From positions 1 through 20,166 of the IMG/VR virus record IMGVR_UViG_3300017987_000439: DNA of 20,166 nt; one strand, 5' to 3'. The notes under the pieces were generated by a model that searched no databases, was not told the origin of the DNA, and worked only from the letters and a program-made list of their open reading frames with translations. The position numbers and the translations under genes were made by a program. Positions within the stretch are counted from its first letter, which is position 1; the number at the start of each line of letters is the position of its first letter. The DNA comes from a virus. Below are positions 4,128 through 20,166 of the stretch, piece after piece.

Positions 4128-4754
4128 ATGGAAAAGATGAAAAAACACACAGAGTTTGAAACAAAGTATAAGATTGAGGGGGACAAGCTTTTTGAGTTTA
4201 AGCAAATTGTAGAAAAGATTGACCAACCGTATGATTTCCTTTATGTACAAGGGCCTGACTGGTATTATACAAAAACAGACGGCTCTTTCTTGAGATATAG
4301 AAAGGCAGAAAATGACAAGACAGGCAGAGCTGAGCTTACAATGAAAGCAAAGCCAGAGGGCTCCTCACATAACGTGGTTAGAAAAGAGGTTAATCTAAGG
4401 GTTGATAAGAACAATTTTAATACAATTGAGGCGTTCACTAAAATGTTAGGTTATGAATTTAACTTTGAAATATGGAAAATGTGTCATATATATAATTTTA
4501 AAGATGCTACACTTGTTTTTTACACCGTTAGAGATAACAAAGGTGTTATGACGCATTTTGTTGAAATTGAAGTTGACGAAGAAACTATTCACAAATTAAC
4601 AGAAGAAGAAGCTTTGGATATTGTTAGAAAGTATGAAAGAATTCTGGAACCTATTGGGATAACTTACAGACACAGGCTTAACAAAAGCTTGTTTGAGATG
4701 TATGTTAATGAATCGTTACTAGAAAAGAAAGAAGTTGACATAAGGGCTGTTTGA
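4128..4754 (+). CDS. CYTH-domain triphosphate-tunnel enzyme
   Basis: This 208-aa protein has the signature of the CYTH (triphosphate tunnel metalloenzyme) superfamily, whose members hydrolyse thiamine triphosphate, inorganic triphosphate or RNA 5'-triphosphate ends, or cyclise ATP (class IV adenylate cyclase). Visible motifs are ExExK at E9-F-E11-T-K13, FLRYR at 54-58, TMKAK at 71-75, VVRKEV at 83-88, the acidic strand FVEIEVDEE at 144-152, and a C-terminal YRHRLNKSLFEMY at 180-192. All are where this fold places its tunnel residues. Metal-dependent cleavage of a triphosphate is therefore likely, but the substrate cannot be told from sequence. The start is uncertain: ATG 4128 lies 2 bases after the previous stop, while ATG 4137 has GGAAAAG just upstream. 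It leads a five-enzyme cassette ending at 6761. Confidence 0.85.
   Translation: MEKMKKHTEFETKYKIEGDKLFEFKQIVEKIDQPYDFLYVQGPDWYYTKTDGSFLRYRKAENDKTGRAELTMKAKPEGSSHNVVRKEVNLRVDKNNFNTIEAFTKMLGYEFNFEIWKMCHIYNFKDATLVFYTVRDNKGVMTHFVEIEVDEETIHKLTEEEALDIVRKYERILEPIGITYRHRLNKSLFEMYVNESLLEKKEVDIRAV
4742..4746 (+). promoter_or_regulatory. Ribosome binding site deciding the GNAT start
   Basis: AAGGG lies 7 bases before the ATG at 4754. An in-frame TTG at 4751 is too close to it to be a better start. The ATG shares its A with the TGA stop (4752-4754) of the CYTH gene, a typical coupled junction. Confidence 0.55.
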
Positions 4755-5209
4755 TGGTTTTTGAGATTAGTAAAGTAAGTTCATTTGAGGCTTTGCAGAT
4801 TTTAACGCTTATAAACCAGCACTACGATGCACCAGAGCATCTGAAGGTTAAAACGGTAAAAGAGCTTTATGATGAAATTGCTAAAGATAACGCTAAAGTA
4901 GGTGTAATCAAAGAAAACGATGAAATAGTAGCTGTTTCTTTTTATAAGAAAATGACAGACCACCTGGTTATGACCTATTGGACAATAGTACACAAAGCCC
5001 ATAGAAAAAAAGGGCTTGCATATAGGATAAATGAAGAGTTTGAGAAAATTTTCAAACAACAGGGTTTTAAAAAGGTAATGTGTGATATCTATACAGATAA
5101 TTTACCTAGCTTATTTTTAAAACTAAAAAGAGGGTACTTGGTAGAAGGTCTTAGAAAAAACCATGATCTACAAGGTGTTCATGAGTACACGCTAGGTAAG
5201 GAGATTTAA
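4754..5209 (+). CDS. GNAT family N-acetyltransferase
   Basis: This 151-aa protein is the normal size for a single GNAT domain that moves an acetyl group from acetyl-CoA to an amine. The acetyl-CoA binding motif A is visible as TYWTIVHKAHRKKGLAYRI, with the R84-x-x-G87-x-A89 pyrophosphate loop after a beta strand. Motif B follows (DNLPSLFLKLKRGYLVEGL, residues about 115-133), where N116 and the F-x-x-x-x-x-G-Y pattern match the usual N...ly.k.GF arrangement. The final strand is HEYTLGK. The substrate is unknown: a host protein, a small molecule or a toxin-linked tRNA are all possible. It begins in the stop codon of the CYTH gene and ends one base before the HAD gene, so it is part of one coupled operon. 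Confidence 0.8.
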   Translation: MVFEISKVSSFEALQILTLINQHYDAPEHLKVKTVKELYDEIAKDNAKVGVIKENDEIVAVSFYKKMTDHLVMTYWTIVHKAHRKKGLAYRINEEFEKIFKQQGFKKVMCDIYTDNLPSLFLKLKRGYLVEGLRKNHDLQGVHEYTLGKEI

Positions 5210-6077: not shown

Positions 6078-6761
6078 ATGAGTTATGTAATTGGTTTGGC
6101 TGGTGTTAAAACATCGGGGAAATCTACTGTCACGGAAATGATTAAAAGAGTTATTGCAGAAAGAAATCCAAATATTTCTGTTGAAGAAGCAGCTCTTGCT
6201 AACAAGCTAAAAGAGGTGTCTGCAGAGGTTTTTAACATTCCCAGAGAAAACTTTGACAGACAAGATTTAAAAGAGGTTAACTTTGAAGATGGTCCAAAGA
6301 TTTTGACAATGGGAAAAATCAACGATGTTTTACATTCTTTTAACGTAGATGTTACACAAGATCTTTTAAATAGTTATTTAGATATTACAGGGATGGAACT
6401 TGAAAGCCCTCGAAGGGTAGCTCAAATCATTGGCACCCAGGTTTTGAGAGCTACGGGAAATGAGGATATTCATTGTGAAAATGTAAACCTTAATTTGACT
6501 GGTGTGACTATTATTTCCGATATGAGGTTTCCAAATGAGTTTGAGTACTTCAACAGTCATAAAGAATGGAAAAGCGGCTTCCTACCTATTTACATCAAAA
6601 GAGATGAGGCCGAAGCACTTGTCACAGAAGATTCTCATGAATCAGAGACTTCTGTATTTAAGTTCTCAGATAAATGTGTAGAACTTCCTAATAACGGTAG
6701 TTTAGAGGATCTTGAAACAATGGTTTTTAATGTTTTAAAAATTAATAGTAATTTAATTTAG
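6078..6761 (+). CDS. Deoxynucleoside monophosphate kinase (T4 gp1-like)
   Basis: This 227-aa P-loop kinase would move phosphate from ATP to dNMPs, giving dNDPs for phage DNA synthesis. Walker A is visible as GVKTSGKST (residues 9-17). PRRVAQIIGTQVLRATGNED (111-130) and IISDMRFPNEFE (145-156, with D148, R150, N153 and E154) are hallmarks of the phage dNMP kinase family, as is the SHESE motif (186-190) that follows. The length is close to the usual 220-250 residues. AAGGAG (6066-6071) precedes the ATG at 6078. It is the last gene of the accessory cassette; the structural genes resume after a 41-base gap with no terminator. Confidence 0.88.
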   Translation: MSYVIGLAGVKTSGKSTVTEMIKRVIAERNPNISVEEAALANKLKEVSAEVFNIPRENFDRQDLKEVNFEDGPKILTMGKINDVLHSFNVDVTQDLLNSYLDITGMELESPRRVAQIIGTQVLRATGNEDIHCENVNLNLTGVTIISDMRFPNEFEYFNSHKEWKSGFLPIYIKRDEAEALVTEDSHESETSVFKFSDKCVELPNNGSLEDLETMVFNVLKINSNLI

Positions 6762-6802: not shown

Positions 6803-8224
6803 GTGGCTCTTTTTAACAAACAAGACAGAATAGAACTTTCTAAGAAAGCTGTTTCTATAGAAGACGAGATAAAGTCTGCAGATGCTGCTATATTAGAAGC
6901 TCAGATCGATAAACAAGATCTTGAAAACCAGGACTCTCCTAATAAAAAACTTGTAGATGAACAGACAGGTCTTATAAAGCCATATCAGGATGAAGCTGTT
7001 TTGTTTGACGGAAATCAGAGGTCTGAATTAACAGAGCAGATTATGGAAGATTCTGCTAGAAGAATTCTAAACAACTCTTTTTTTCCAAATGACCCAAACT
7101 CTCCTTTGGCATCCTTACCAGACGGTCTATGGACTAACTTCATACCTTTTTCTAGAACACACGGTATAGGTAAGACAAATTTTGAACAGTTTGTATCTAC
7201 AGGAAACCGTACAGAACCTGATATTATTGCAGACATAAATTCTACAATATCTTCAATTGAATCAGAAGCTATATCTGAAAGAGCAACTGGGCTAGAGTGT
7301 AATCTAGGGGTCGGTAGTTGTACTGGAGAGACACCTCCTGGATCAGGTACTACACAACCGCTTTGTATTACAAATGGCGGTACATGGTCTACTGGTCCAG
7401 ATGTATATTCTTCAAATTCAAACGTACAGGCTTTAATAGGACAGCTAAAATCACTTGTTCAAGAGTGGGAAGATATTCTTAATAATCAGAAGTCAATAAT
7501 TCCTACAGATGATCCTGATTCTACAAGAGATTCAGGCAACTCATCAGCAGTTTCTGATATAGACGACACAATTGCGATTATAGATTCATGGCAGTCTGTA
7601 CAAGACTTTGATACAAGCACCTCTTTGCCTAGTGGTAGTAATGGTTCTGGCTGTGCTGCTTTTGGCGCTCTAACAGAGGGGTATTTTCAGCAGTCAAAAC
7701 TTGCCCCAACAACACTACAAATTCTCAAGGATGAAGTGGGTCCAAGATCCTCTTTTATATCTTCTAGACTTGCTGATATAACAGGAAATGACTATTTAGG
7801 TTCTGTTAACCAGGATATTAACGATGGATCGGTTCTTAATACAGAAGGTTTATATGGTGACAGATTTCTTTTTATAAACCTTAGACTAAATACCATAGGA
7901 GGAACTCTTTCTAGAAAAATTAACATAGACAGAGTTATAGAGGTTCAGGAGCAGATAAAGGAAAATGCTGAACTATCCAAAGAAGCCTTAGATCTTGCTA
8001 TTTCGGCAACAAAACTTAATGCTCCAGGGACAGGTACAAAATTTGTAAATGTAAAAGAGCCTGAAAAATTTAGCGTAGGAGATAGGGTGTATCTTGTAGC
8101 AAATGAACAAGAAGAGCTGTCAGGTTCTATTAAGGGTATAGAAGGTTATAGGATAGAACTTAGTTTTACAGTTCCTAAGAAATACAGCACAATCAACACG
8201 GCAAGGTTGTATAAGTTTATTTAG
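6803..8224 (+). CDS. Probable virion/baseplate-associated protein, unknown family
   Basis: This 473-aa protein begins with GTG, fixed by AGGAGA at 6793-6798. Residues about 8-45 form a charged helix likely to be a coiled coil. Residues about 60-160 contain LFDGNQRSELTEQIMEDSAR and LWTNFIPFSRTHG, not recognised. A Gly/Ser/Thr-rich segment with four Cys (near 166-188 and 284) follows; paired cysteines are unusual for a cytoplasmic virion protein. Residues about 370-400 are helical again. The last 65 residues (KFVNVKEPEKFSVGDRVYLV, then YRIELSFTVPKKYSTIN) form a beta module that resembles parts of the J protein and its neighbour. Placement between spike and baseplate genes and this shared module suggest a baseplate or tail-attached protein. 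Its stop overlaps the stop of the opposite-strand lipoprotein gene. Confidence 0.75.
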   Translation: MALFNKQDRIELSKKAVSIEDEIKSADAAILEAQIDKQDLENQDSPNKKLVDEQTGLIKPYQDEAVLFDGNQRSELTEQIMEDSARRILNNSFFPNDPNSPLASLPDGLWTNFIPFSRTHGIGKTNFEQFVSTGNRTEPDIIADINSTISSIESEAISERATGLECNLGVGSCTGETPPGSGTTQPLCITNGGTWSTGPDVYSSNSNVQALIGQLKSLVQEWEDILNNQKSIIPTDDPDSTRDSGNSSAVSDIDDTIAIIDSWQSVQDFDTSTSLPSGSNGSGCAAFGALTEGYFQQSKLAPTTLQILKDEVGPRSSFISSRLADITGNDYLGSVNQDINDGSVLNTEGLYGDRFLFINLRLNTIGGTLSRKINIDRVIEVQEQIKENAELSKEALDLAISATKLNAPGTGTKFVNVKEPEKFSVGDRVYLVANEQEELSGSIKGIEGYRIELSFTVPKKYSTINTARLYKFI

Positions 8225-8772
8225 CGCCATTCTTTTATTTCTTTTATATAATGATCGTAATTTTTTTGTTGACAATAGTAGTCAAAAGTAGTTGAGTGCA
8301 TAATACTATAAGGACAACCGTCAATTAGCATCTCATTTCTTCTTATCAATCCAAGGTAGTATCCAATCCTTTCAAAGAAGCTACTAAAATCATCGACTTT
8401 TTCGGTCAAATCAGTGTGAGGTCTGTACCTTATACAATGTTCTAGTTCATGGTATATGGTAAATTCCCTATCTAATGCTGTTGAGTTTGAGAACCACCAG
8501 GTTCTGTCTATAAGGATCTCTGCTTCTCCACTTAGTAGATTTTTACACCTACCGATAACTTTTTTATCATCCTTACTTTCAAGATCTCCAAAATTCATTG
8601 ACATATTTTCAAATCTATACTTGTATTTTTCGTATTTTATAATCTGTTTGTACTTTTCTATATACAGATGAAAAGTAGGATCTACACCTTTTTTTTCTGA
8701 CATTCTGTTTACCAGGGCAAATGAGCAGGAGCTTAAAGCAAATAAGCAGTATATGATTAATATTTTTTTCAT
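8221..8772 (-). CDS. Lipoprotein zinc metallopeptidase-like protein
   Basis: This 183-aa protein is on the opposite strand to all structural genes. MKKILIIYCLFALSSC is a lipoprotein signal with lipobox L-S-S-C and lipid Cys16, so the mature protein would sit in the envelope. Residues 108-119 read HELEHCIRYRPH: a HExxH zinc motif plus a third His at +11. Downstream, SIMHS (156-160) looks like the Met-turn of metzincin-type peptidases. From memory, bacterial secreted proteins with HELGHCxxxRxH and SIM motifs have the same spacing; here the Gly is Glu111. Other Cys are at 9, 76, 113, 153 and 167. It is probably a membrane-tethered protease acting in the periplasm or at the surface. The start forms an ATGA overlap with the upstream membrane-protein gene. 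Its role in infection is unknown. Confidence 0.75.
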   Translation of the reverse strand: MKKILIIYCLFALSSCSFALVNRMSEKKGVDPTFHLYIEKYKQIIKYEKYKYRFENMSMNFGDLESKDDKKVIGRCKNLLSGEAEILIDRTWWFSNSTALDREFTIYHELEHCIRYRPHTDLTEKVDDFSSFFERIGYYLGLIRRNEMLIDGCPYSIMHSTTFDYYCQQKNYDHYIKEIKEWR

Positions 8773-8998: not shown

Positions 8999-11635
8999 AT
9001 GGCTTTAAAAGATATTTTAACACAAGTCGGTGGAAAGCTGGTTGTAAACCCAAAAACCTCTATAAGCGCATCTGGTTTTAAAGATCATATTAGTGGTGAT
9101 TTAGCTTGGAATGTTACTAATAGAAATCCTAGTGTTTTTTTTAGTCCTGTAGATATAGACCCCCAAAGGGCTGATGGTATATTTCCATATAGACTTCTAG
9201 TAGTTGATTCCAGGACAAACAGGCCTGTTTCGGGTAGTTTGTCTGGTTTACCAGGAGGAATAGGTGGGGTTTCTCAGAATAATCAAGTTGTTAAGTATAA
9301 ATCAGACACAGGCGGTGTACAGTATACTTATGGTGGAGGAGTAGGTATTTGGGAGGTTACGCTTCCTATTACACCTCAGCAGCTAAGTATAACAGATCAA
9401 TTTGCTATAAATACATCAGCTACTATGAGAGGTGTTGTAGAAGAGCATAATGGTGTTAAGTTTAAAATGATAACGGCATCTGGTACATATGGTATATGGC
9501 CTAGTAGGGATCGTATTGCTGATGAAAATTCTGGAACAGGAATCGCTCTTTTTGGTGGTGTAGTTGAGTCCTTAGGGAGTGTTGCTAGAGCTGGCCAAGC
9601 ACTTATAAGCGGAGGTAAGCCGAAACCTATTGCTTTAGATTTTACAAAAGAAAACGCTGGAAGAAATACTGGTTATTTTCAAGCACAACTTGTACAGCAG
9701 TTTTTAGAGCAGTATGCAATGGCGAAAACAAATCCTGCTAATAAAAACTGGAGACTTGTTTTTGATTGCCCCAAAACAAACGAATCTTTTGTCGTAACCC
9801 CTATTGCATATACTGCTTCAAAAAGCCAAAGAAGTCCTGGTGAAACACTTTTTAACATGCAGTTTAAGGCATGGAAAAGAGTTAGGCTTAACCAGGGTTC
9901 TCTTGTAGATGTTGGTGGTAAAACCTTTGATTTAGATGCAAACTTCTTTCAGAGAATATCAAACACACTAGACAATGCAAGAAGTTTAATGAGCGCATCT
10001 TTAAATGTAGTAAAATCTGTTAGAGCTGACTTTAGAAAGCCTTTTGATCAACTTAGAAAAGTAACACTTCTTGTTAAGGATTTTGCAGGTTTAACATTAG
10101 CTGTATCTGATCTACCAAACCAGATAGGTAGGGACATAAGTTCTGCTACTAGAAAGAGATCTAACGACCTGGCAGCTGCATCCCAGGCTTTTTCTCTAAC
10201 ATTTAGCGGTGCTCAGAGAACAAGGGTTTCTCAGACAAAAATACAGAATACTTTAAGTGTAATTAAAGAAGAGAACGACAGGAACGAAGGTTTAACATCT
10301 CAAGAGGTAGAAGTTGGCCTAAATGGAATACAGGCTAGAGATGCTAATAGAGTATCTCCTGTAAATGAGATTTTTGAAAATCCAGAAGAAAATTTTGATT
10401 TTTTTAGTGCAATAGCTGTAGATGAGTTAGAGCTTACACCCAAACAAACACAGGCAATAGAAGATGAGATTGAAGTGAACTCACTAATTTCTGTTGATGA
10501 GGTTAGAGACATTGTTCAAGATATTCAAGATTTAATCCTTGATATATCAAATGTTTTTGGAGCCGGTGATGCAGAGTTTTCTGAAATATTTGGAAGACCA
10601 GCACCCAGAGAACGTGCTATACCTATGACAATTGATGAGTTTGAACTTTTAACAGCTATGGAAGCGGCTGTTTTAGATATGAACATTCTTTCTTCTACTA
10701 GAGAGTTTGACGACACAAGAACTCAGACACCACTAGAATATGTAGGTGGTTTAGCAGACGACTCTGATATACCTTTTAACTCTTCTTATACAGCAAAGTT
10801 TCTAGCTCCTGTTCCTTTTGGTTTAACAATAGAGCAGATATCTTCTAGATACTTAGGAAGTGCAGATCTTTATAATGAAATAGTTACAATAAATAATTTA
10901 AGGTCTCCTTATATTGATGAAGATGGTTTTTTCTATAGTTTTCTGTCAAACGGTGATGGTAGGCAGTTTAACATAGGTACTGACAAAAATCTTTATATCG
11001 GCCAAAAAATTCAGCTATCAAGTAACACAGTACCTATGTTTACTAGAAAAATAGCTAATATAGAAAAGATCTCCGATAATAACTATCTTATAACAGTAGA
11101 TGGTCTTGCTGACCTAGAAAACCTCAAAGCCTCTGAAGGCGCAAAAATAAAAGCTTTTCTACCTGGAACAGTAAATAGTCAGAATCAAATCTACATACCT
11201 ACAAACGAAGTTACCCCAGAAGAACCAAGAGCTTATGATATCCCGTTCTTACAAGACGATACCCTTACAGGACTATCCAAGATTGACTGGCTTCTGACAG
11301 AAAATGGAGATGTTGTTTTGAATTCCTTTGGGGAAGCAGGTCTTGCCAATGGTATTACAAATCTTGTACAAGCTTTAAAAATGAAGGTTGTAACCACTAA
11401 AGGTGCAATATTAGATGAAAATAACTACGGATTAGGGATTAATCCCGGTACTATTGTAAGCGATATTGTTGTAGAGAATATAATGAAAGATCTTGAAGAT
11501 ATGATACTAGAAGATCCTCGTTTTGATGGTATAGAAAGTATGGAGATGAATGTTTTGCCTCCAGACCTTTCTTTGACAATAAGTGTTAGGCTGGCAAATA
11601 ATCGTGGTATATTTCCTATAAACTTTACAGTATAA
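8999..11635 (+). CDS. Baseplate protein: hub-like domain, LysM-like domain and DUF2634/gp25-like C-terminus
   Basis: This 878-aa protein appears to join parts that are often separate in simpler phages. Residues about 115-295 (LPITPQQLSITDQFAINTSA, SGTYGIWPS, then the segment ending FNMQFKAWKRV) resemble the N-terminal domain of LysM-bearing baseplate proteins of Gram-positive myophages. Residues about 300-600 are helical and acidic. Residues about 604-640 (LTIEQISSRYLGSADLYNEI, then INNLRSPYI) match the LysM-like domain of T4 gp53/XkdP-type proteins. Residues about 645-745 form another beta segment. Residues about 760-878 (DWLLTENGDVVLNSFGEAGL, then NYGLGINPGT, ending SVRLANNRGIFPINF) match the DUF2634/XkdS and gp25-like wedge fold. 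It likely links the tube end and hub to the wedge and sheath. GGAA at 8991-8994 gives a weak ribosome binding site. Confidence 0.75.
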   Translation: MALKDILTQVGGKLVVNPKTSISASGFKDHISGDLAWNVTNRNPSVFFSPVDIDPQRADGIFPYRLLVVDSRTNRPVSGSLSGLPGGIGGVSQNNQVVKYKSDTGGVQYTYGGGVGIWEVTLPITPQQLSITDQFAINTSATMRGVVEEHNGVKFKMITASGTYGIWPSRDRIADENSGTGIALFGGVVESLGSVARAGQALISGGKPKPIALDFTKENAGRNTGYFQAQLVQQFLEQYAMAKTNPANKNWRLVFDCPKTNESFVVTPIAYTASKSQRSPGETLFNMQFKAWKRVRLNQGSLVDVGGKTFDLDANFFQRISNTLDNARSLMSASLNVVKSVRADFRKPFDQLRKVTLLVKDFAGLTLAVSDLPNQIGRDISSATRKRSNDLAAASQAFSLTFSGAQRTRVSQTKIQNTLSVIKEENDRNEGLTSQEVEVGLNGIQARDANRVSPVNEIFENPEENFDFFSAIAVDELELTPKQTQAIEDEIEVNSLISVDEVRDIVQDIQDLILDISNVFGAGDAEFSEIFGRPAPRERAIPMTIDEFELLTAMEAAVLDMNILSSTREFDDTRTQTPLEYVGGLADDSDIPFNSSYTAKFLAPVPFGLTIEQISSRYLGSADLYNEIVTINNLRSPYIDEDGFFYSFLSNGDGRQFNIGTDKNLYIGQKIQLSSNTVPMFTRKIANIEKISDNNYLITVDGLADLENLKASEGAKIKAFLPGTVNSQNQIYIPTNEVTPEEPRAYDIPFLQDDTLTGLSKIDWLLTENGDVVLNSFGEAGLANGITNLVQALKMKVVTTKGAILDENNYGLGINPGTIVSDIVVENIMKDLEDMILEDPRFDGIESMEMNVLPPDLSLTISVRLANNRGIFPINFTV

Positions 11636-11719: not shown

Positions 11720-14700
11720 ATGGCTGAAGGCTTACCAACACCTAGATCTAGAGAACAAATACTTTCAGAGATGCTTACGGAATACCGAGGTCTTACAGGT
11801 ATTGACGATCTAAATACAGGTTCTGTTGTTACTCAATTTTTTGACGTTGTAGCCAGATCCGTTGCTAGGACATCTGGAGACATATTTCAAATACTTAGAG
11901 ACTTTTCTTTAGACAGAGCCGTAGGCGAGGCTTTGAATAGAATAGGCGACGAAGAGCGTGTACCTAGACAGCCAGCCCAGATTGCAAGCGGAACAGTGAG
12001 TGTACTAGATACTACTTTTGAGAAAATAGAGACAAAAATATATGCAGGCTCACCATCTCCTAATATAGGATCTTCTGTAATCAGGGTTTCAGATGCTTCT
12101 GAGTTTACAGCTACAGGAACTCTTTATATAGGAAGAGGTACTCCAAATGTTGAAGGGCCTATTTCTTATAATACGGTTACTCAAGTAGGTTCTTTCTGGG
12201 AGATAACACTAGACACCCCAACTAAAAAATTCCACAATATTTCTGAGTCAGTAATTCTAGGGCAAGGCGGTACAAGAACTATACCAGTTGATACGGTTGT
12301 ACTTTCTCCTGGAGCAGGTGCTACTGCAGATATTCTCTATAATGTTTCTTCTGCAGCAATTCTTTTAGATGGTGAGAACAGAAATGACTTTGTACAGGTT
12401 GTAGCTCAGGAGCCAGGTGACTTTGCAAACGCACCAAGAGGTTCTATTAGAGAGTTTTCAACAGAACCTTTCCCAGGTGCTTCTGTTATAAATGAAATAC
12501 CTATATCAAACGGTGAAAAAGAAGAAAGTGACGACAACTATAGAGATAGAATTAAAAAAGCAAGACTTTCAAGAGGCCTTGGTACTGCACTAGCGGTTAG
12601 AAACGCTGTTTTAGGAGCACAGGCTCAGGACGAAGATGCCAGAGTAACTTCTAACGAAATAGATACAACAAATCCAGAGCAGACAATTTTGTATATTGAT
12701 AATGGAGAGGGGTATGAAGAAAAGTCTTCAGGAGTAGGTATTGAACCTATTATAGATTCTGCAATAGGTGGAGAGCAAAATTTTCAACTAGAAACAGGCG
12801 GTTCTCAAACATCTGTAAGAAAAGCTTTTTTAGAGTCTTCTCTTTCCACTCCTTTTAGTATTAATTCTTTTGATAAACTTTCCATATTAGTTGGTGGAAT
12901 TCTTTCTGAGCACACCTTTCTTTCAGGTGCTTTTAGAGCAGAAGGTGCTGCAACTGCTTATGAAGTTGTTGCAAGTATAAATGATAACCCAGATCTTACC
13001 TTTGAAGCAACTACAGCAGAAAATGGAACAAAAGTTGTATTACAAGCAAAAGCTGAAGATAATGAATTTTTACAAATCACATCTCCTAGTGTTGGAAATG
13101 ATTCAGCACCTAGCTTTGGTTTTACTTCCAACGAGGTAAGTACTGTTTTATTATATAAGAATAGAGAGCTTTTAAATAAAAATGGTAGATCAGCTTTTGT
13201 TATATCGAAGGAAAGATTCGATTGGTCAAGCACTATAACAGATGGCGAAACCTTGACAGTATCTGTTGATGGAACAAATGCTATAACTTATACATTTCAA
13301 GATGAGGATTTTATTGCAGAAGGACAGCATCCTACTGTTAGTGCAAACAATACCTTATCTTCTTGGATCAATGTTATAAACGCAAAAGTCACGGGTGTTA
13401 CAGCAGAAGCAAATGGTGAGCAGATAAAACTTACCAGTAACTTAGGTGCTGTAAATAGAGCTGCGATAAGTATTGACCCACTATCTACACTTGTTATAAA
13501 AGGAATGTTTTCTTCTGATCTAGGTCTTTCTGCTACTGGTAACGAAGCAGACTTTGAATTATCTAGAAATACAGCGCAGATAAAGCTTAATCAACCTCTT
13601 ACCGAGGGTGATTCTTTAACATTAGGATCTGAGTTTACTAGAGCAGAAGTCAGAAGTTCAAATATTTTAGGTGGATCACTTACTCTTACCGATACAGCAT
13701 ATCTTTGGATAGTTGTTGACAATAAGAATGTAGAATCGATTCAAACAGGTCTTGCTGCCGATACTTTTTTAGAAGTATCAAAACCCGGTGGTGGAATTAT
13801 TAGGTATACCAGTAGTTCTACTAATGCATTTGGAAATGTACAGGTTGGAGATTATGTAATTGTCTGGTCAGAAGAACTTTCTGCTGCAAATAGATTAGAA
13901 GCAAGAGTAAACGCTGTTACAGCAACAACTCTTGATATTAAAGTCACTGCCTCAGAAGAATCTTCTGCTGTTGCTGAAGGCCCTTTGTTGTTTCAAGAAG
14001 GTTTTACAGTAGTAAGAACAGAGATAGCACCACAAAAGATTAAAGTAGATCCAGGTGTATATGATATAAACACTATCGCAGATGATATAAATCTACAAGT
14101 AAAAAACGCTGTTTTTAGTATAGATGAAGACGAGATTTTTGTAATAAGAACAAAAACAGAGTCTGTAGATGGCTCTCTTTTCGTGGTCGATTCTAATGAA
14201 GCAGGTAAGTCATTAAATTTTACAAAAAGTGATAGTTCTGATAGTATAAATTCTCAAATAGCCTTTAATGAGTCCTCTTTTAGTGATAAACAATTTCCTC
14301 TTTTTGTTCACGGAACCATAAATACAGATGCTTTTGCAGATCCACCAAATAGTAATATAACTTCGATAGATTCAAGTGAAGATCTTGCAGCTCTAGGATT
14401 AGATCCTTCAGGTTATATATGTTTTTCTCAACCATACAACGGTCAGAATGACATTATCTCTGAAGAGTGCATTGAGATTGAAAGGTTTATTGGAACAGCA
14501 ATAAATGTAGAAAATAGCCCTATTTATAAAAGAAGTAGAGTCGGAGATCGTTACCATGTACTTGGTGGTTATGACTTCAGTCACAATGACTTCTTGGTTA
14601 TTGTATTAGATAACGATGCTACAGGAAAGACTTTTGATATTCCTGTATTTAGAACAGCACTTGTAAACAATACCCACCCAAATAACCCTGATAACTTTAG

Positions 14701-17700
14701 AGCCTATGATTCTGAAGGTGGTCCAACGACAGAGTTTACAGAATTTTTTGGAGATGAATTCTTATTTGACAACTACAAAGCTTTAATGCAGGCAAAAAAT
14801 GGTCTAGATCCACTTTCTCTTACCGATGAAGATGCCATCCTTTATAGATCTACAGAATGGGGTAGATCAGGTGAGAGCTTTGGTGTAGGCTACAAATACC
14901 CAACTGCTTCAGATCAGGATATCACACATATTGTGACTTTTGGTGAAACAGTAAATATTGATATTTTTCTAAAATCTGGACCTGCAAGAGTAACAACTAT
15001 TGATGGAACAACAGAGTGGAATGTTAGTATATCTCCTTTAAGTCCTTCTGTAGACCTTGTTACATATACTTATTCAGGGACGGGTACAGCTCCAGGATTA
15101 GCTTCTCTTAACTCAGGCGATTATGTAACAATAAGAACTACTGGAGAGTTTAGTCAGGAAAACACAGGAACCTATAGAGTTGATTCTTCTACTGCCAATA
15201 GTTTTACTATTAGAAGAGCAAACGGAGATGCTGTAGCTGAGACCGATATCGCTACTGTTGAAACAAATACTTTTTCTATTTATGAAAGCTCTTCAACTAC
15301 CGCACAAGAGATCGTGGACTATGTGACAAGTGATGTTTCAGATTATCTTACAGCAACTATATTAGACGATAATGGAAGTTCAGGTGCTGGTGTTATCGAC
15401 AGATCTACTGCAGAAGATTCTGATTTTTCTTATGAAAGAGTTTTCCTAAAAGACGGTAAAAACTATATCCTTTCAACAGATCTTGATGCGCTTGTAGGAA
15501 ACCCTCAGTTTACTTTTAAGAACAGTTTAACTCTTCCTAGTTTTTCTACTAACACTGTAGATGCATATACTTTTAACGATGGTGAGCAGGTAAGAATAGT
15601 ACCTACAACATCTCTGCATCTTTCAGAGTTTTTTAACATTCTAGCTGTTACAGGTTTTACAACAATAGGTGAGATAAAATCAGTAAGAAGAAACTCTACA
15701 CTACAGTTCTCTAGTGATGTAACAGGAAGCGAAGGTTCTGTACAAGTAGCTGGTGATACAGCAAGTGCTGCTATTGCAACAATTGACGGAAGTGCCGTTG
15801 TTGTTGGGAGTCAGTCAAATCAAAAATCTATAGTTACAATACTTACTTCAGCATCTACCGGATTTCACTCAGATCAGTATGTAAAAGTTTCTGCTAGTGA
15901 GATTCAAAAGAAGAATATCGGCATAGATGAGACAAATTCTATAAGAGTTACCCAAGCCACCCCTGCTGTAGGCTTTTCAAAGATTGAACTTTTTGATAGA
16001 CAACTCACTCAAGATCTATTTGGTAGAAATAGATACCACACAAGAACCCGTGGAAGAACTTTTAGAGTAGAAAAACAAGGTGAATTAACCTGTATATCTT
16101 GGGATGGAAACGGTACAGAGCCTTTCTTTTTAGTTAATAGTATTGATGTAAAAGACTCTTCAGCAAGTACTTTAACAATAAATACCGATTCAGTTCTTGG
16201 AACAGCAGATATCAGTGTTGACACTGGTGACATGAGGTTTGATGGTATTAATAAAGGTGATTTGATCACACTCTCAAACAGACTTAATTCAGTAAACAAT
16301 GGAACATTTATTGTTCTTGGTAAATCTGATGACGGAAAAACTTTAAGAATCTTAAACCAAGACGCTGTTAATGAGTTAGCAACTGGTAGTTTTACTATTA
16401 CCGATAATGTAGCTGTTGTAGGCAGTACTTTTACTGTAGGAGCAAACACTGTTACTGAAGGTGTTGAATTCTCTGTTGGAGCTACTTTAGACGATACAGC
16501 TTCAAATCTTGCTGCTGCTATTTCACTTTTACCTAACGTATCCTCTCAATCAAATGCTGCTATAGCCAACATAGAAAGTGACATACCAGGCGTGACAGTT
16601 GCTTTATCTGCTTCTGGTGGTGGTGCAACGGCTAGTGGAAGTCAGTTAACAGCGCCTACTTCAAGTACAGGAGATTTAACAGCAACTACAGAAGTTCAAG
16701 AAGGTGACTCTGTTATAATTGCTAGTGATTTTAATATTCTAAACCAAGGAACTTATAGGGTAATCAGAAGATTTAAAAACTCTATCTATATTGATAACCC
16801 TAACTCTGTAGATGAAGAAGTTACACTAGCAGATCAACTTATATCAACAGGGGCAAATGCTTCTACTGATTATGATGTAGAAAAAGACGGCAGTACTACA
16901 AAGCTAAAATGGGCAGGTTCTGGAAACGAACCTTCTTTAGAAAGTATGAGACCAGGAGATATCATAACTTTAGGTACAGACTTCTCTGCTGACAATCAGG
17001 GTGAGTTTCATATTATAGATTCTGGAGAAAAACTTCAAGAAATCACAAGAATGACTCAATCAAGAGCTGTTGACATGTCAACAGGACAATATGCTCTTAT
17101 AAATAGTGCAGAAGATGCTACTGAGTATTATATCTGGTATAACAAAGACGGTGGAGGAGGAGACCCTTCCGTACCTGGTAAAACTGGTATAGAAATTCCT
17201 GTAACTACCGGAGAAAGTGCTTCAGATGTTGCTATTACAAAAACTAGTGTTATAAACACTACTTTTTCTGCTGATTTCTCTGCGGTAGCATCTGGTGATG
17301 ATGTAATTATTACAAATGTTGGTTTTGGAGAAACTACAAACGCCTCTAATGTAGATGTTGCTGGTGACTTTGATGTCGAAGTTACACAAGAAGGCAGAAG
17401 AAATTTTGTTAGCTACATCAACGTAGACGCTGTAAACGAAAGCGGTATTACAATTTCTGATGTACTAGAATTTCACAGAGAAGCTATGAAGTTTAAATCT
17501 TATGATGGAATCATTCCCGGTGATGTTGCCGTTATTTCCAGTAACTTTCTAGGTGAAGACAATGCCGGAAGATACACTGTTAGCGATGTGCTAAGTGAAA
17601 CAGAAATTATTGTAACAGGAAATGCTTCGAGTACTACTAAACAACTTCTAGATACTAACTTTAGCAATTTCTATGTAGAAGAAGAAAATCCCTATGTAGG

Positions 17701-18286
17701 ATATAAGAAGATCGATATTATAGCAACAAACCCTGCAAATCTAAACGCAAAAAATATACTTTTTGATACAGCTAATCAGTCATCGAAAATTAACGAGCTT
17801 GCCGGTGTTTCGATTTCTGCATTAGGAAAATTAAACCTTTCAAGTGATGTTATCAAAGGTATTGATAGTTACAAATACAACACAGGCCTCATTGCAGAAG
17901 CTAATAGGATTGTATACGGAGAGCCACGGGATAGTACTACTTATCCAGGTGTTGGAGCCGCAGGAGCTGAGATCTTTATTAAAGCACCTCTTGTTAGAAG
18001 AATTCAGGTTTCTATTGATGTAAGAGTTAAAACAGGTGTTCCTTTCTCTACAATATCTGAAGAGATAAGAAACTCTGTAACAGCGCTGATCAACTCTAAC
18101 GATGTAGGTCAACCAATTCCTATTTCAAATATTGTAAGTAATGTAAACGCTATTGTAGGTGTTCAATCTGTAGCTATAAGCTCTCCTCAGTATGATGCTA
18201 ATAATGACGTAATTAGGGTTAATTCTGGAGAAAAAGCACTTGTATTAGATACAATAGCAGATGTAATCGTTTCAAAAATTGAGTAA
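11720..18286 (+). CDS. Giant baseplate J-like wedge protein with repeated beta modules
   Basis: This 2188-aa protein is several times longer than usual J proteins (about 300-660 aa). Residues 1-115 and 181-340 carry the normal J start (SREQILSEMLTEYRGLTGID, GSVVTQFFDVVARSVARTSG, then EESDDNYRDRIKKARLSRG). The C-terminus from about 2050 is also J-like (AGAEIFIKAPLVRRIQVSID, PISNIVSNVNAIVGVQSV). Between them lie about 1700 residues of Ser/Thr/Asp-rich beta modules. One type with the pattern G-D-x-V-x-I ... N-x-G-T-Y-x-V occurs about six times (near residues 680, 1094, 1446, 1653, 1713 and 1920). Another (VSDASEFTATGTLYIGRGTP, 120-180) recurs in the next gene. J proteins form the ring of wedge dimers that triggers sheath contraction. 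The inserts may build outer baseplate decorations or receptor-contact surfaces; that is inference. AAGAGG at 11708-11713 fixes the start. Confidence 0.88.
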   Translation: MAEGLPTPRSREQILSEMLTEYRGLTGIDDLNTGSVVTQFFDVVARSVARTSGDIFQILRDFSLDRAVGEALNRIGDEERVPRQPAQIASGTVSVLDTTFEKIETKIYAGSPSPNIGSSVIRVSDASEFTATGTLYIGRGTPNVEGPISYNTVTQVGSFWEITLDTPTKKFHNISESVILGQGGTRTIPVDTVVLSPGAGATADILYNVSSAAILLDGENRNDFVQVVAQEPGDFANAPRGSIREFSTEPFPGASVINEIPISNGEKEESDDNYRDRIKKARLSRGLGTALAVRNAVLGAQAQDEDARVTSNEIDTTNPEQTILYIDNGEGYEEKSSGVGIEPIIDSAIGGEQNFQLETGGSQTSVRKAFLESSLSTPFSINSFDKLSILVGGILSEHTFLSGAFRAEGAATAYEVVASINDNPDLTFEATTAENGTKVVLQAKAEDNEFLQITSPSVGNDSAPSFGFTSNEVSTVLLYKNRELLNKNGRSAFVISKERFDWSSTITDGETLTVSVDGTNAITYTFQDEDFIAEGQHPTVSANNTLSSWINVINAKVTGVTAEANGEQIKLTSNLGAVNRAAISIDPLSTLVIKGMFSSDLGLSATGNEADFELSRNTAQIKLNQPLTEGDSLTLGSEFTRAEVRSSNILGGSLTLTDTAYLWIVVDNKNVESIQTGLAADTFLEVSKPGGGIIRYTSSSTNAFGNVQVGDYVIVWSEELSAANRLEARVNAVTATTLDIKVTASEESSAVAEGPLLFQEGFTVVRTEIAPQKIKVDPGVYDINTIADDINLQVKNAVFSIDEDEIFVIRTKTESVDGSLFVVDSNEAGKSLNFTKSDSSDSINSQIAFNESSFSDKQFPLFVHGTINTDAFADPPNSNITSIDSSEDLAALGLDPSGYICFSQPYNGQNDIISEECIEIERFIGTAINVENSPIYKRSRVGDRYHVLGGYDFSHNDFLVIVLDNDATGKTFDIPVFRTALVNNTHPNNPDNFRAYDSEGGPTTEFTEFFGDEFLFDNYKALMQAKNGLDPLSLTDEDAILYRSTEWGRSGESFGVGYKYPTASDQDITHIVTFGETVNIDIFLKSGPARVTTIDGTTEWNVSISPLSPSVDLVTYTYSGTGTAPGLASLNSGDYVTIRTTGEFSQENTGTYRVDSSTANSFTIRRANGDAVAETDIATVETNTFSIYESSSTTAQEIVDYVTSDVSDYLTATILDDNGSSGAGVIDRSTAEDSDFSYERVFLKDGKNYILSTDLDALVGNPQFTFKNSLTLPSFSTNTVDAYTFNDGEQVRIVPTTSLHLSEFFNILAVTGFTTIGEIKSVRRNSTLQFSSDVTGSEGSVQVAGDTASAAIATIDGSAVVVGSQSNQKSIVTILTSASTGFHSDQYVKVSASEIQKKNIGIDETNSIRVTQATPAVGFSKIELFDRQLTQDLFGRNRYHTRTRGRTFRVEKQGELTCISWDGNGTEPFFLVNSIDVKDSSASTLTINTDSVLGTADISVDTGDMRFDGINKGDLITLSNRLNSVNNGTFIVLGKSDDGKTLRILNQDAVNELATGSFTITDNVAVVGSTFTVGANTVTEGVEFSVGATLDDTASNLAAAISLLPNVSSQSNAAIANIESDIPGVTVALSASGGGATASGSQLTAPTSSTGDLTATTEVQEGDSVIIASDFNILNQGTYRVIRRFKNSIYIDNPNSVDEEVTLADQLISTGANASTDYDVEKDGSTTKLKWAGSGNEPSLESMRPGDIITLGTDFSADNQGEFHIIDSGEKLQEITRMTQSRAVDMSTGQYALINSAEDATEYYIWYNKDGGGGDPSVPGKTGIEIPVTTGESASDVAITKTSVINTTFSADFSAVASGDDVIITNVGFGETTNASNVDVAGDFDVEVTQEGRRNFVSYINVDAVNESGITISDVLEFHREAMKFKSYDGIIPGDVAVISSNFLGEDNAGRYTVSDVLSETEIIVTGNASSTTKQLLDTNFSNFYVEEENPYVGYKKIDIIATNPANLNAKNILFDTANQSSKINELAGVSISALGKLNLSSDVIKGIDSYKYNTGLIAEANRIVYGEPRDSTTYPGVGAAGAEIFIKAPLVRRIQVSIDVRVKTGVPFSTISEEIRNSVTALINSNDVGQPIPISNIVSNVNAIVGVQSVAISSPQYDANNDVIRVNSGEKALVLDTIADVIVSKIE

Positions 18287-18288
18287 AA

Positions 18289-19908
18289 ATGGCTACTAGA
18301 GAAGATGAATACAAAAGACTTAGGGCTTACCTTAATAAAGCTATTAGGGGTGCTAACACAGATGCTATTCTAAAGTCTGTAGCAAGCGGTCCTGCTCATC
18401 TAATTAACAACGTAGAAGCTGTAAACGATTCGCTATACGTTGTTTCTGCACAAGAAATGTTTTTAGACCAAAGACTTGGAGATAAGGGTGTTATTAGACC
18501 TCCAAATGTAGGTTTATCAGATGAAGCTTTTCGTGAGATAGGTATTGAAGTCACGACTAGAAAGCAGGTTAGAGATCTTATACACCAGCTTTTAAGGGTT
18601 TTGTATGGAGAAGTTTTTACAAGAGCAACTTCTGATGCTACTGAAGTAGAAAATTACTTTCTAGAAGATGGTGATAACTTACTCATTTCCTTTGATGGTG
18701 GTGAACCTTTAGATATAATATTTTCTACAAGCCAGTTTCAAAATATAAGTAGTGCAACAGCTCAGGAAGTTGCAGATGCGATAACTAAAAAAATTAGAGA
18801 ATTGGGTCAAACAGGTTCTGCTTTTGTAAAAGAGCAGGGTAATGACTTTAAAGTATCTCTAATTTCCTCTACAGATGGTCCTTCTTCTAGTGTAAGAGTC
18901 TTAGGAGGTAAGGCTCAAAATGTTTTAAAATTTGAGGAAATAAGACCTACCTCTGGTGATTTTAGTACACAGTGGACTATCACACAAGAACCTGATGGTA
19001 GTATAAGATTTACGTGGACAGGCGGTGCAAACCCTTCTATAGGTAAGGTAAAACCTGGAGATTATGTAAATATTTACGGAACTGCTTTTGATACTTTAAA
19101 TAGAGGAACCTTTATTATAACAGAAGTTATTAGTAGTACTGTTAACAATTCTTATTTTGAAATACAAAACCCTAACGGCTTAGAAGAGATAGTAACACAA
19201 GGTACTGGTGAGGCTGTATTATTCTTTAATCCTAAACTAAGAACTTTGATATCAGATAAAAGATATGCTGCAGCTTTTCAGACATCTCCTAGAACCTTAG
19301 AGGTTTTTATGCCAGCTACTACAAGAATTGTAAGGCGTAGTAGAAAAGGCGCTGCTCATATATATGAAAGCGGTCCTTCTTTAGAAGGTCAGGAAGGCCC
19401 ATATATTTATGATGAGACAGTTGGTTATACAATAAGTAATGAATCAGCATCTACAACAGAAATTTTAGATACCGATAGTGATGATATTGTATTTGTAGAC
19501 GATGCTTCAGAGTTTCCAGACGAGGCAGGTAGTGTAATTATAGGGTTGGGTACATCTCACCAAGAAGGCCCTGTGCCTTATATTGCAAAACCTTCTTCAA
19601 ATACTATTAGAATAGATCCTTCATATAAGTTTAAAAATAGACATCCGATAGGAACTGACATAGCTCTTGTTGCTGAGAAAAATCCACCAAACGTGTCTTT
19701 AGATGGTAATGATTATCCTTTTTACCTAACAGACTCTGTTGCTGGAAGGCTTTATGCAGAAGATCTTATAAAAGAGGTTGTTGCAACAGGTATTATTGTA
19801 ATAATTTATATACTATATCCAAGTGACGAAGGTCTAGGTAATTGGGGTAACGAAAGTACTTCTGAAAAATTCTATGTATGGGGTACAGAAGAGGATTTAA
19901 TAGGTTAA
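18289..19908 (+). CDS. Baseplate-associated protein sharing modules with the J protein
   Basis: This 539-aa protein starts 2 bases after the J stop with only a weak GAG (18281-18283), so translation is probably coupled to the J gene. Residues 1-110 are helical (EYKRLRAYLNKAIRGANTDA, TTRKQVRDLIHQLLRVLYG) and look like an attachment domain. Residues about 125-210 (DGDNLLISFDGG, then ATAQEVADAITKKIREL) match a module type also seen in J. Residues about 225-300 contain GDYVNIYGTAFDTLNRGTF, the same repeat as in J. Residues about 398-463 (FVDDASEFPDEAGSVIIGLG) match the J module at 120-180. The C-terminus includes a hydrophobic run (GIIVIIYILYP) that may be a buried strand. The position after J is where P2-like phages place gpI and T4-like phages place wedge proteins, but no such family was recognised. 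It probably builds on the wedge surface. Confidence 0.75.
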   Translation: MATREDEYKRLRAYLNKAIRGANTDAILKSVASGPAHLINNVEAVNDSLYVVSAQEMFLDQRLGDKGVIRPPNVGLSDEAFREIGIEVTTRKQVRDLIHQLLRVLYGEVFTRATSDATEVENYFLEDGDNLLISFDGGEPLDIIFSTSQFQNISSATAQEVADAITKKIRELGQTGSAFVKEQGNDFKVSLISSTDGPSSSVRVLGGKAQNVLKFEEIRPTSGDFSTQWTITQEPDGSIRFTWTGGANPSIGKVKPGDYVNIYGTAFDTLNRGTFIITEVISSTVNNSYFEIQNPNGLEEIVTQGTGEAVLFFNPKLRTLISDKRYAAAFQTSPRTLEVFMPATTRIVRRSRKGAAHIYESGPSLEGQEGPYIYDETVGYTISNESASTTEILDTDSDDIVFVDDASEFPDEAGSVIIGLGTSHQEGPVPYIAKPSSNTIRIDPSYKFKNRHPIGTDIALVAEKNPPNVSLDGNDYPFYLTDSVAGRLYAEDLIKEVVATGIIVIIYILYPSDEGLGNWGNESTSEKFYVWGTEEDLIG

Positions 19909-19909
19909 T

Positions 19910-20166
19910 ATGGCACAAAGAACTGTAGCTGGATCACATTTAAAAGTTTATATAAACGGTGTTGTTTATAATGAAACTCAAAGTTTGAGCTATTCCATAG
20001 ATTATGGTGAAGAGCCTATCTACGGAATTGACTCTGTTTTTCCCCAGGAAATAAAGATAACCAGGGTCTCTGTCACAGGAAGTATTTCCGGTGTAAGAGT
20101 TTCTAACTCAAACGGGCTACAAGGTTACAATGCAAGACCTGGAATAAGAGACTCTATATTTGCTCC
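19910..20166 (+). CDS. Tail protein, 3' partial, possible tube-like fold
   Basis: The frame begins at the ATG at 19910, one base after the previous stop, and stays open to the window end (85 full codons). AGG at 19902-19904 is a weak ribosome binding site. The visible part starts MAQRTVAGSHLKVYINGVVY and continues with alternating beta strands (ETQSLSYSIDYGEEPIYGID, then EIKITRVSVTGSISGVRV). The pattern of an opening strand, an acidic loop, then a 'hydrophobic-x-G-S-I-x-G' strand recalls the tail-tube fold that is also used in tube initiators and baseplate adaptors. With only the N-terminal part visible, the tube-like call is tentative; presence of a coding gene is much surer. Its place after J and its companion supports a tail role. 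Confidence 0.6.
   Translation, partial: MAQRTVAGSHLKVYINGVVYNETQSLSYSIDYGEEPIYGIDSVFPQEIKITRVSVTGSISGVRVSNSNGLQGYNARPGIRDSIFA

Follow-up and report, generated by a model that had tools for sequence, protein, structure and literature searches.

Two described systems are among the closest to the domain analysed here. The first catalytic cysteine half-domain (FCCH) of the ubiquitin E1 proteins Uba1 and Uba6 (Pfam E1_FCCH, PF16190) is a small β-barrel of about 80 residues, inserted into the protein that carries it. Within E1, loops tether the FCCH to the inactive adenylation domain, and the FCCH makes contact with ubiquitin (PMC12355090). In the tailspike of phage K1F, the polysialic acid binding site is located in a β-barrel (PMC12632334). 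The roles described for E1 and K1F serve below as analogies for the function of a repeated phage module, termed A, and not as tests of it.

The window, i.e. the whole stretch of DNA analysed, is a virus record of 20,166 bases, attributed to a contractile-tailed phage, and represents a fragment. Gene J (11720..18286; all J and K features lie on the plus strand) is an uninterrupted frame encoding a 2188-AA protein with a conserved core formed by residues ~1-330 and 1990-2188, between which ~1650 residues of inserted domains are placed. Residues 10-329 match the baseplate wedge family phrog_6 with an E-value of 1e-25. The PF04865 (Baseplate_J) cut-off was passed by J orthologs, and a Pfam search with J of the window returned no match to this family. 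Judged by the profiles of its core, J is a wedge protein of the Baseplate_J type (PF04865/phrog_6). Gene K (18289..19908) encodes 539 AA and follows J directly, which is the customary gene order in baseplate clusters. Its AlphaFold2 model, built from 42 orthologs and compared with VIA-align, predicts a helical N-terminus, a domain of family B with one copy of module A inserted, and a J-like C-terminal part. A short stretch outside module A is also common to the two proteins (J 121-156, 12080-12187, and K 401-438, 19489-19602; E ~1e-7). The protein encoded before J (8999-11635) resembles baseplate or sheath-initiator proteins in its C-terminal part (phrog_975, E 2e-13; PF10934, only E 0.019). 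Elsewhere in the window Pfam recognizes a GNAT acetyltransferase and a deoxynucleotide monophosphate kinase (4751-5209 and 6078-6761), and among the tail genes a small protein encoded on the minus strand (8221-8772) has a lipoprotein-like start and a metallopeptidase-like HELEH motif, with no match in a Pfam search.

A sequence-only reading of this DNA had proposed that one module recurs about seven times in the two adjacent genes, and our analyses bear this out at the positions given there, with six copies in J and one in K. The copies in J are A1 (13757..13954, J 680-745), A2 (14993..15244, J 1092-1175), A3, A4 in a short form (16655..16819, J 1646-1700), A5 (16853..17098, J 1712-1793) and A6 (17453..17629, J 1912-1970), the last being the shortest match (profile columns 10-51). 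The seventh copy, K1, occupies 18937..19233 (K 217-315). The internal insert that had been noted in A3 is real: a first half (16046..16144, J 1443-1475), which corresponds to J 1715-1740 in A5, is separated by the insert from the second half (16205..16375, J 1496-1552). When hidden Markov models of six copies were used to seek the seventh, all were recovered, most clearly A2 (2e-10), A4 and K1 (1e-8 each) and A5 (5e-8), more weakly A3 through its second half (1e-5), A1 (4e-4) and A6 (5e-3), of which A1 and A6 are modest taken alone. With relatives added to the profiles, all seven copies scored 42-71 bits, while none of 400 shuffled proteins exceeded 6.6 bits. The motif GD.[VILA].[IVL]...G.[YF].[VI] occurs six times in J and K together, whereas 5000 shuffles gave two at most and 4933 of them none. 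Along J, profile-profile comparison set the six copies apart (42-55 columns, E 6e-12 to 5e-20) from other stretches (0.01-0.6), except that a segment that overlaps A5 at its end scores too. The significant self-similarity that the sequence-only reading had asked for is present. A decayed eighth copy had also been suggested at 15861-15960 (J 1381-1414); its profile-profile match (E 0.03 over 15 columns) lies within the background, and we rejected it.

To these sequence comparisons the predicted fold can be added. Residues 110-320 of the K model have a pLDDT of ~90 or more. FliD D2 and phage sheath domains found with VIA-align cover K 110-329 with ~100 residues aligned (Z 7-9.6) and skip a segment of about the length of A, so that A in K is predicted to be a small β-barrel inserted in module B, a flagellar-cap/sheath-like domain. 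Within this one-copy model, K1 aligns with the FCCH of Uba1/Uba6 over 76-80 residues at 2.5-2.7 Å (Z 6-6.6) and with the endosialidase barrels of phi92 (4hiz, Z 6.9), NF (3gvj, 6.2) and K1F (1v0e, 6.0) at 19-22% identity; Z values of 6-7 are in the range that the tool rates as common. A tandem model of A4-A5 showed the order of strands and turns seen in the K copy, and its fold search gave no useful match (best Z 2.4); the lack of FCCH there is not counter-evidence. The expectation of the same small β-fold for every copy holds in part: the barrel of K1 and the strand order of A5 agree with it, the tandem found no fold match, and the comparison covers the modelled copies. The AlphaFold alignments were small, with 42-52 sequences.

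Searches of family collections gave module A no name. Independently of the fold search, Pfam E1_FCCH matched A2 with E 0.009. Membership of A in this family by sequence was nevertheless rejected, as the best score was 16.5 bits vs. a cut-off of 29.5, and one of 57 module sequences (at 0.056) and none of the 16 related phage records matched. Comparison of the module profiles with PDB chain sequences gave chance-level matches only, and no sequence relation to endosialidases. No PHROG family was significant for the module, the best recurrent one being phrog_6185 of unknown function (E 0.0014, 8 of 57 members), and nothing recurrent was found in NCBIfam. A literature search found no description of this barrel in phage baseplates. 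The family accordingly carries no name in Pfam, NCBIfam or PHROGs, and we class it with other insertion domains that are repeated in the tail proteins of phages.

As a lone-protein query against viral contigs J gave no match, whereas an alignment query gave many. Profile-guided scans of IMG/VR gave more than 100 related contigs, among them several with lengths of 130-180 kb, and genome assemblies contributed another four; within an annotated phage collection Myxococcus phage Mx1 was the only match. The non-redundant set of complete J proteins has 76 members, of which 54 carry exactly six copies of A. K carries one copy in 84 of 85 proteins, and the two partial matches in the remaining one appear to be one split copy. 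The copies occupy fixed slots: in six-copy J proteins and K, all 408 copies score best with the profile of their own slot. This count is favourable because the slot profiles included the tested copies; independent of them is the gap in mean identity, with 42-56% for copies of one slot and 16-29% for copies of different slots. Spacing is near-constant from the N-terminus to A1 (690-771 residues), from A6 to the C-terminus (219-228) and between slots, except for A3-A4 (10-725 residues) and A5-A6 (19-154). In distant relatives mainly slots 1 and 6 are kept and slots 2 to 5 differ; copies undetected there may be diverged and not lost. Between close J pairs, dN/dS in the A segments is ~0.04-0.14, a value like that of the remaining insert and slightly above that of the core, and the module is under purifying selection. 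Slot-specific orthology across relatives implies that the expansion predates most of the group. That the expansion is old and under selection, as the sequence-only reading had held, is thus upheld.

What that reading had overlooked is that J and K share two further families, B and C, and that the relatives have A in a third gene as well. Module B of K (18616..18936, K 110-216; resuming at about K 316-329 past A) is predicted to have a FliD D2/sheath-type fold, its best matches over ~100 residues being 7kh1 (Z 9.6), 6kty (9.3) and 5h5v (8.6). J contains two copies of it, at 12821..13105 (J 368-462; profile-profile E 4e-21 vs. the B of K) and 13193..13474 (J 492-585; E 1e-8), and a probable third one at 15506..15757 (J 1263-1346; E 8e-7). 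Module C lies at the A5-A6 junction of J (17084..17395, J 1789-1892); it is also found in M, a tail gene downstream, and in the K protein of some relatives. A C-like domain (16376..16654, J ~1553-1645; E 3e-8 vs. the C profile, a partly circular value) is located at the A3-A4 junction. Domains of the C and C-like type vary in presence at these two junctions, the ones with variable spacing. The site past A in K, at about residue 361 (19369..19371), is defined by the alignment of K orthologs and by Kelch matches; it is empty in the window and holds C in three relatives (L003-L005) and kelch repeats in Mx1. Kelch repeats are likewise found at or after this site in the K orthologs of contigs L006 (27801-30749) and L151 (13345-19911), of which the latter protein reaches 2189 AA. 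One J of 2815 AA (L008:1554-9998) has five consecutive C-like domains at A3-A4. Contig L001, which overlaps the window with 100% AA identity and extends it downstream of the part 19910-20166, encodes a 1278-AA M protein carrying C. Frequent exchange of C among J, K and M was considered and rejected, since 117 of 119 C copies match best to a copy in the corresponding gene of a different genome; these matches also indicate that the C copies are old.

Besides J and K, whole-record searches of the relatives with the A profile revealed a ~320-AA protein with two copies of A. Its gene is known from the relatives' genomes, as the window ends short of that region, and it is flanked by the terminase large subunit and the portal genes according to the Mx1 annotation and to PHROG matches in two further genomes. 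With a profile of its own the protein was detected in 18 of 18 genomes (L160:7617-8609 and L161-L177). Sixteen of them have the A pair, one with two extra nested inserts in the loop preceding the GD strand. In the other two (L171:2714-3097 and L172:3093-3470) residues 62-251 are cleanly missing and the flanks are joined, which constitutes a natural empty site. Distant relatives carry the insert, so its absence in these two looks like a loss. This empty site is the clearest sign that A is a removable insertion domain.

We propose that A is probably a portable small β-barrel insertion domain, with seven copies in J and K and, among relatives, two more in the terminase-portal protein, and that on the virion it would act as a spacer and docking arm. 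According to this proposal, its two ends would lie near each other, so that a loop of another domain, such as B in K or the core of the third protein, could take it up; that A is likewise inserted into other domains of J is assumed by analogy with these two. A barrel inserted in this way might project from the virion core and contact neighbouring proteins or the cell surface, and the A-adjacent junctions and the loop before the GD strand would accept exchangeable domains such as C and kelch repeats. A bolder extension, which we put forward tentatively and consider doubtful, is that in Mx1-like myophages one barrel serves as a virion-wide docking element, with slot versions on the wedge, its partner and a packaging/portal protein, each slot encoding a specific neighbour and variable domains being placed at defined junctions.

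The main rival to the spacer and docking reading takes A for a carbohydrate-binding, lectin-like barrel gripping sugars of the host surface, as the K1F endosialidase barrel binds polysialic acid. The resemblance of K1 to the barrels of K1F, NF and phi92 (Z 6.0-6.9) speaks for it, given that the polysialic acid site is in that barrel (PMC12632334), and avidity would be expected from so many copies on a symmetric baseplate. Nevertheless, the strong purifying selection with no fast change seen, the slot identity fixed across diverse phages and the presence of A in a gene between terminase and portal, remote from those that usually face the host, make this role unlikely by our estimate. Purifying selection and the copies in the head-cluster protein would, on the other hand, suit a purely architectural filler that enlarges or stiffens the wedge without specific contact, and so would the copy number and spacing fixed at the ends of J. 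Here the 42-56% identity kept within slots over wide distances suggests slot-specific contacts, and two genomes have the third protein without A; this explanation seems to us quite improbable.

The likeness among the copies could finally be convergent, a common strand-turn pattern instead of duplication. A between-slot identity of just 16-29% and a consensus (GD..I...N.G.F.V) that fits a common turn are in keeping with it. However, the profile-profile matches of the copies are far stronger than those of other parts of J (6e-12 to 5e-20 vs. 0.01-0.6), and those of the long form reach upstream of the GD motif, so that we give convergence hardly any credence. Our preferred reading remains the inserted spacer and docking domain. 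The analysis describes a previously unnamed domain family as a fixed baseplate part in a widespread phage group known mainly from metagenomes and marks where such baseplates accept foreign domains; the empty site shows that an otherwise conserved protein can have the barrel or lack it.

Phage Mx1 is another of the closest described systems. This isolated contractile-tailed phage (PMC10720576) encodes the J and K orthologs WNM70274 and WNM70275, the latter annotated as 'kelch repeat protein'. Only four copies of A were detected in its J (slots 1, 2, 4 and 6), and its K has kelch repeats where the K of the window is empty. The host of Mx1, Myxococcus xanthus, is culturable, which makes the idea testable. 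Like other Baseplate_J proteins (PF04865, phrog_6), J has the conserved core, but it adds the ~1650 residues of repeated domains between the core parts. B of K is similar in predicted fold to FliD D2 and tail sheath domains; in K, however, B carries an extra A, and in J it is repeated. The endosialidase barrels of K1F, NF and phi92 are, like A, parts of phage virion proteins, and the predicted fold of A in K resembles theirs at a middling Z, yet they are placed within an enzyme, whereas A occurs in many copies in baseplate wedge proteins. With E1_FCCH, A would share the small β-barrel and the insertion in a host protein, and in the predicted model the A of K aligns over the whole FCCH length; unlike E1_FCCH it is repeated seven times, scores below the family cut-off and lies in a neighbourhood with no hint of a ubiquitin pathway. 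A barrel of probably similar fold appears as an extra domain in three settings, namely ubiquitin E1, endosialidase tailspikes and baseplate wedges.
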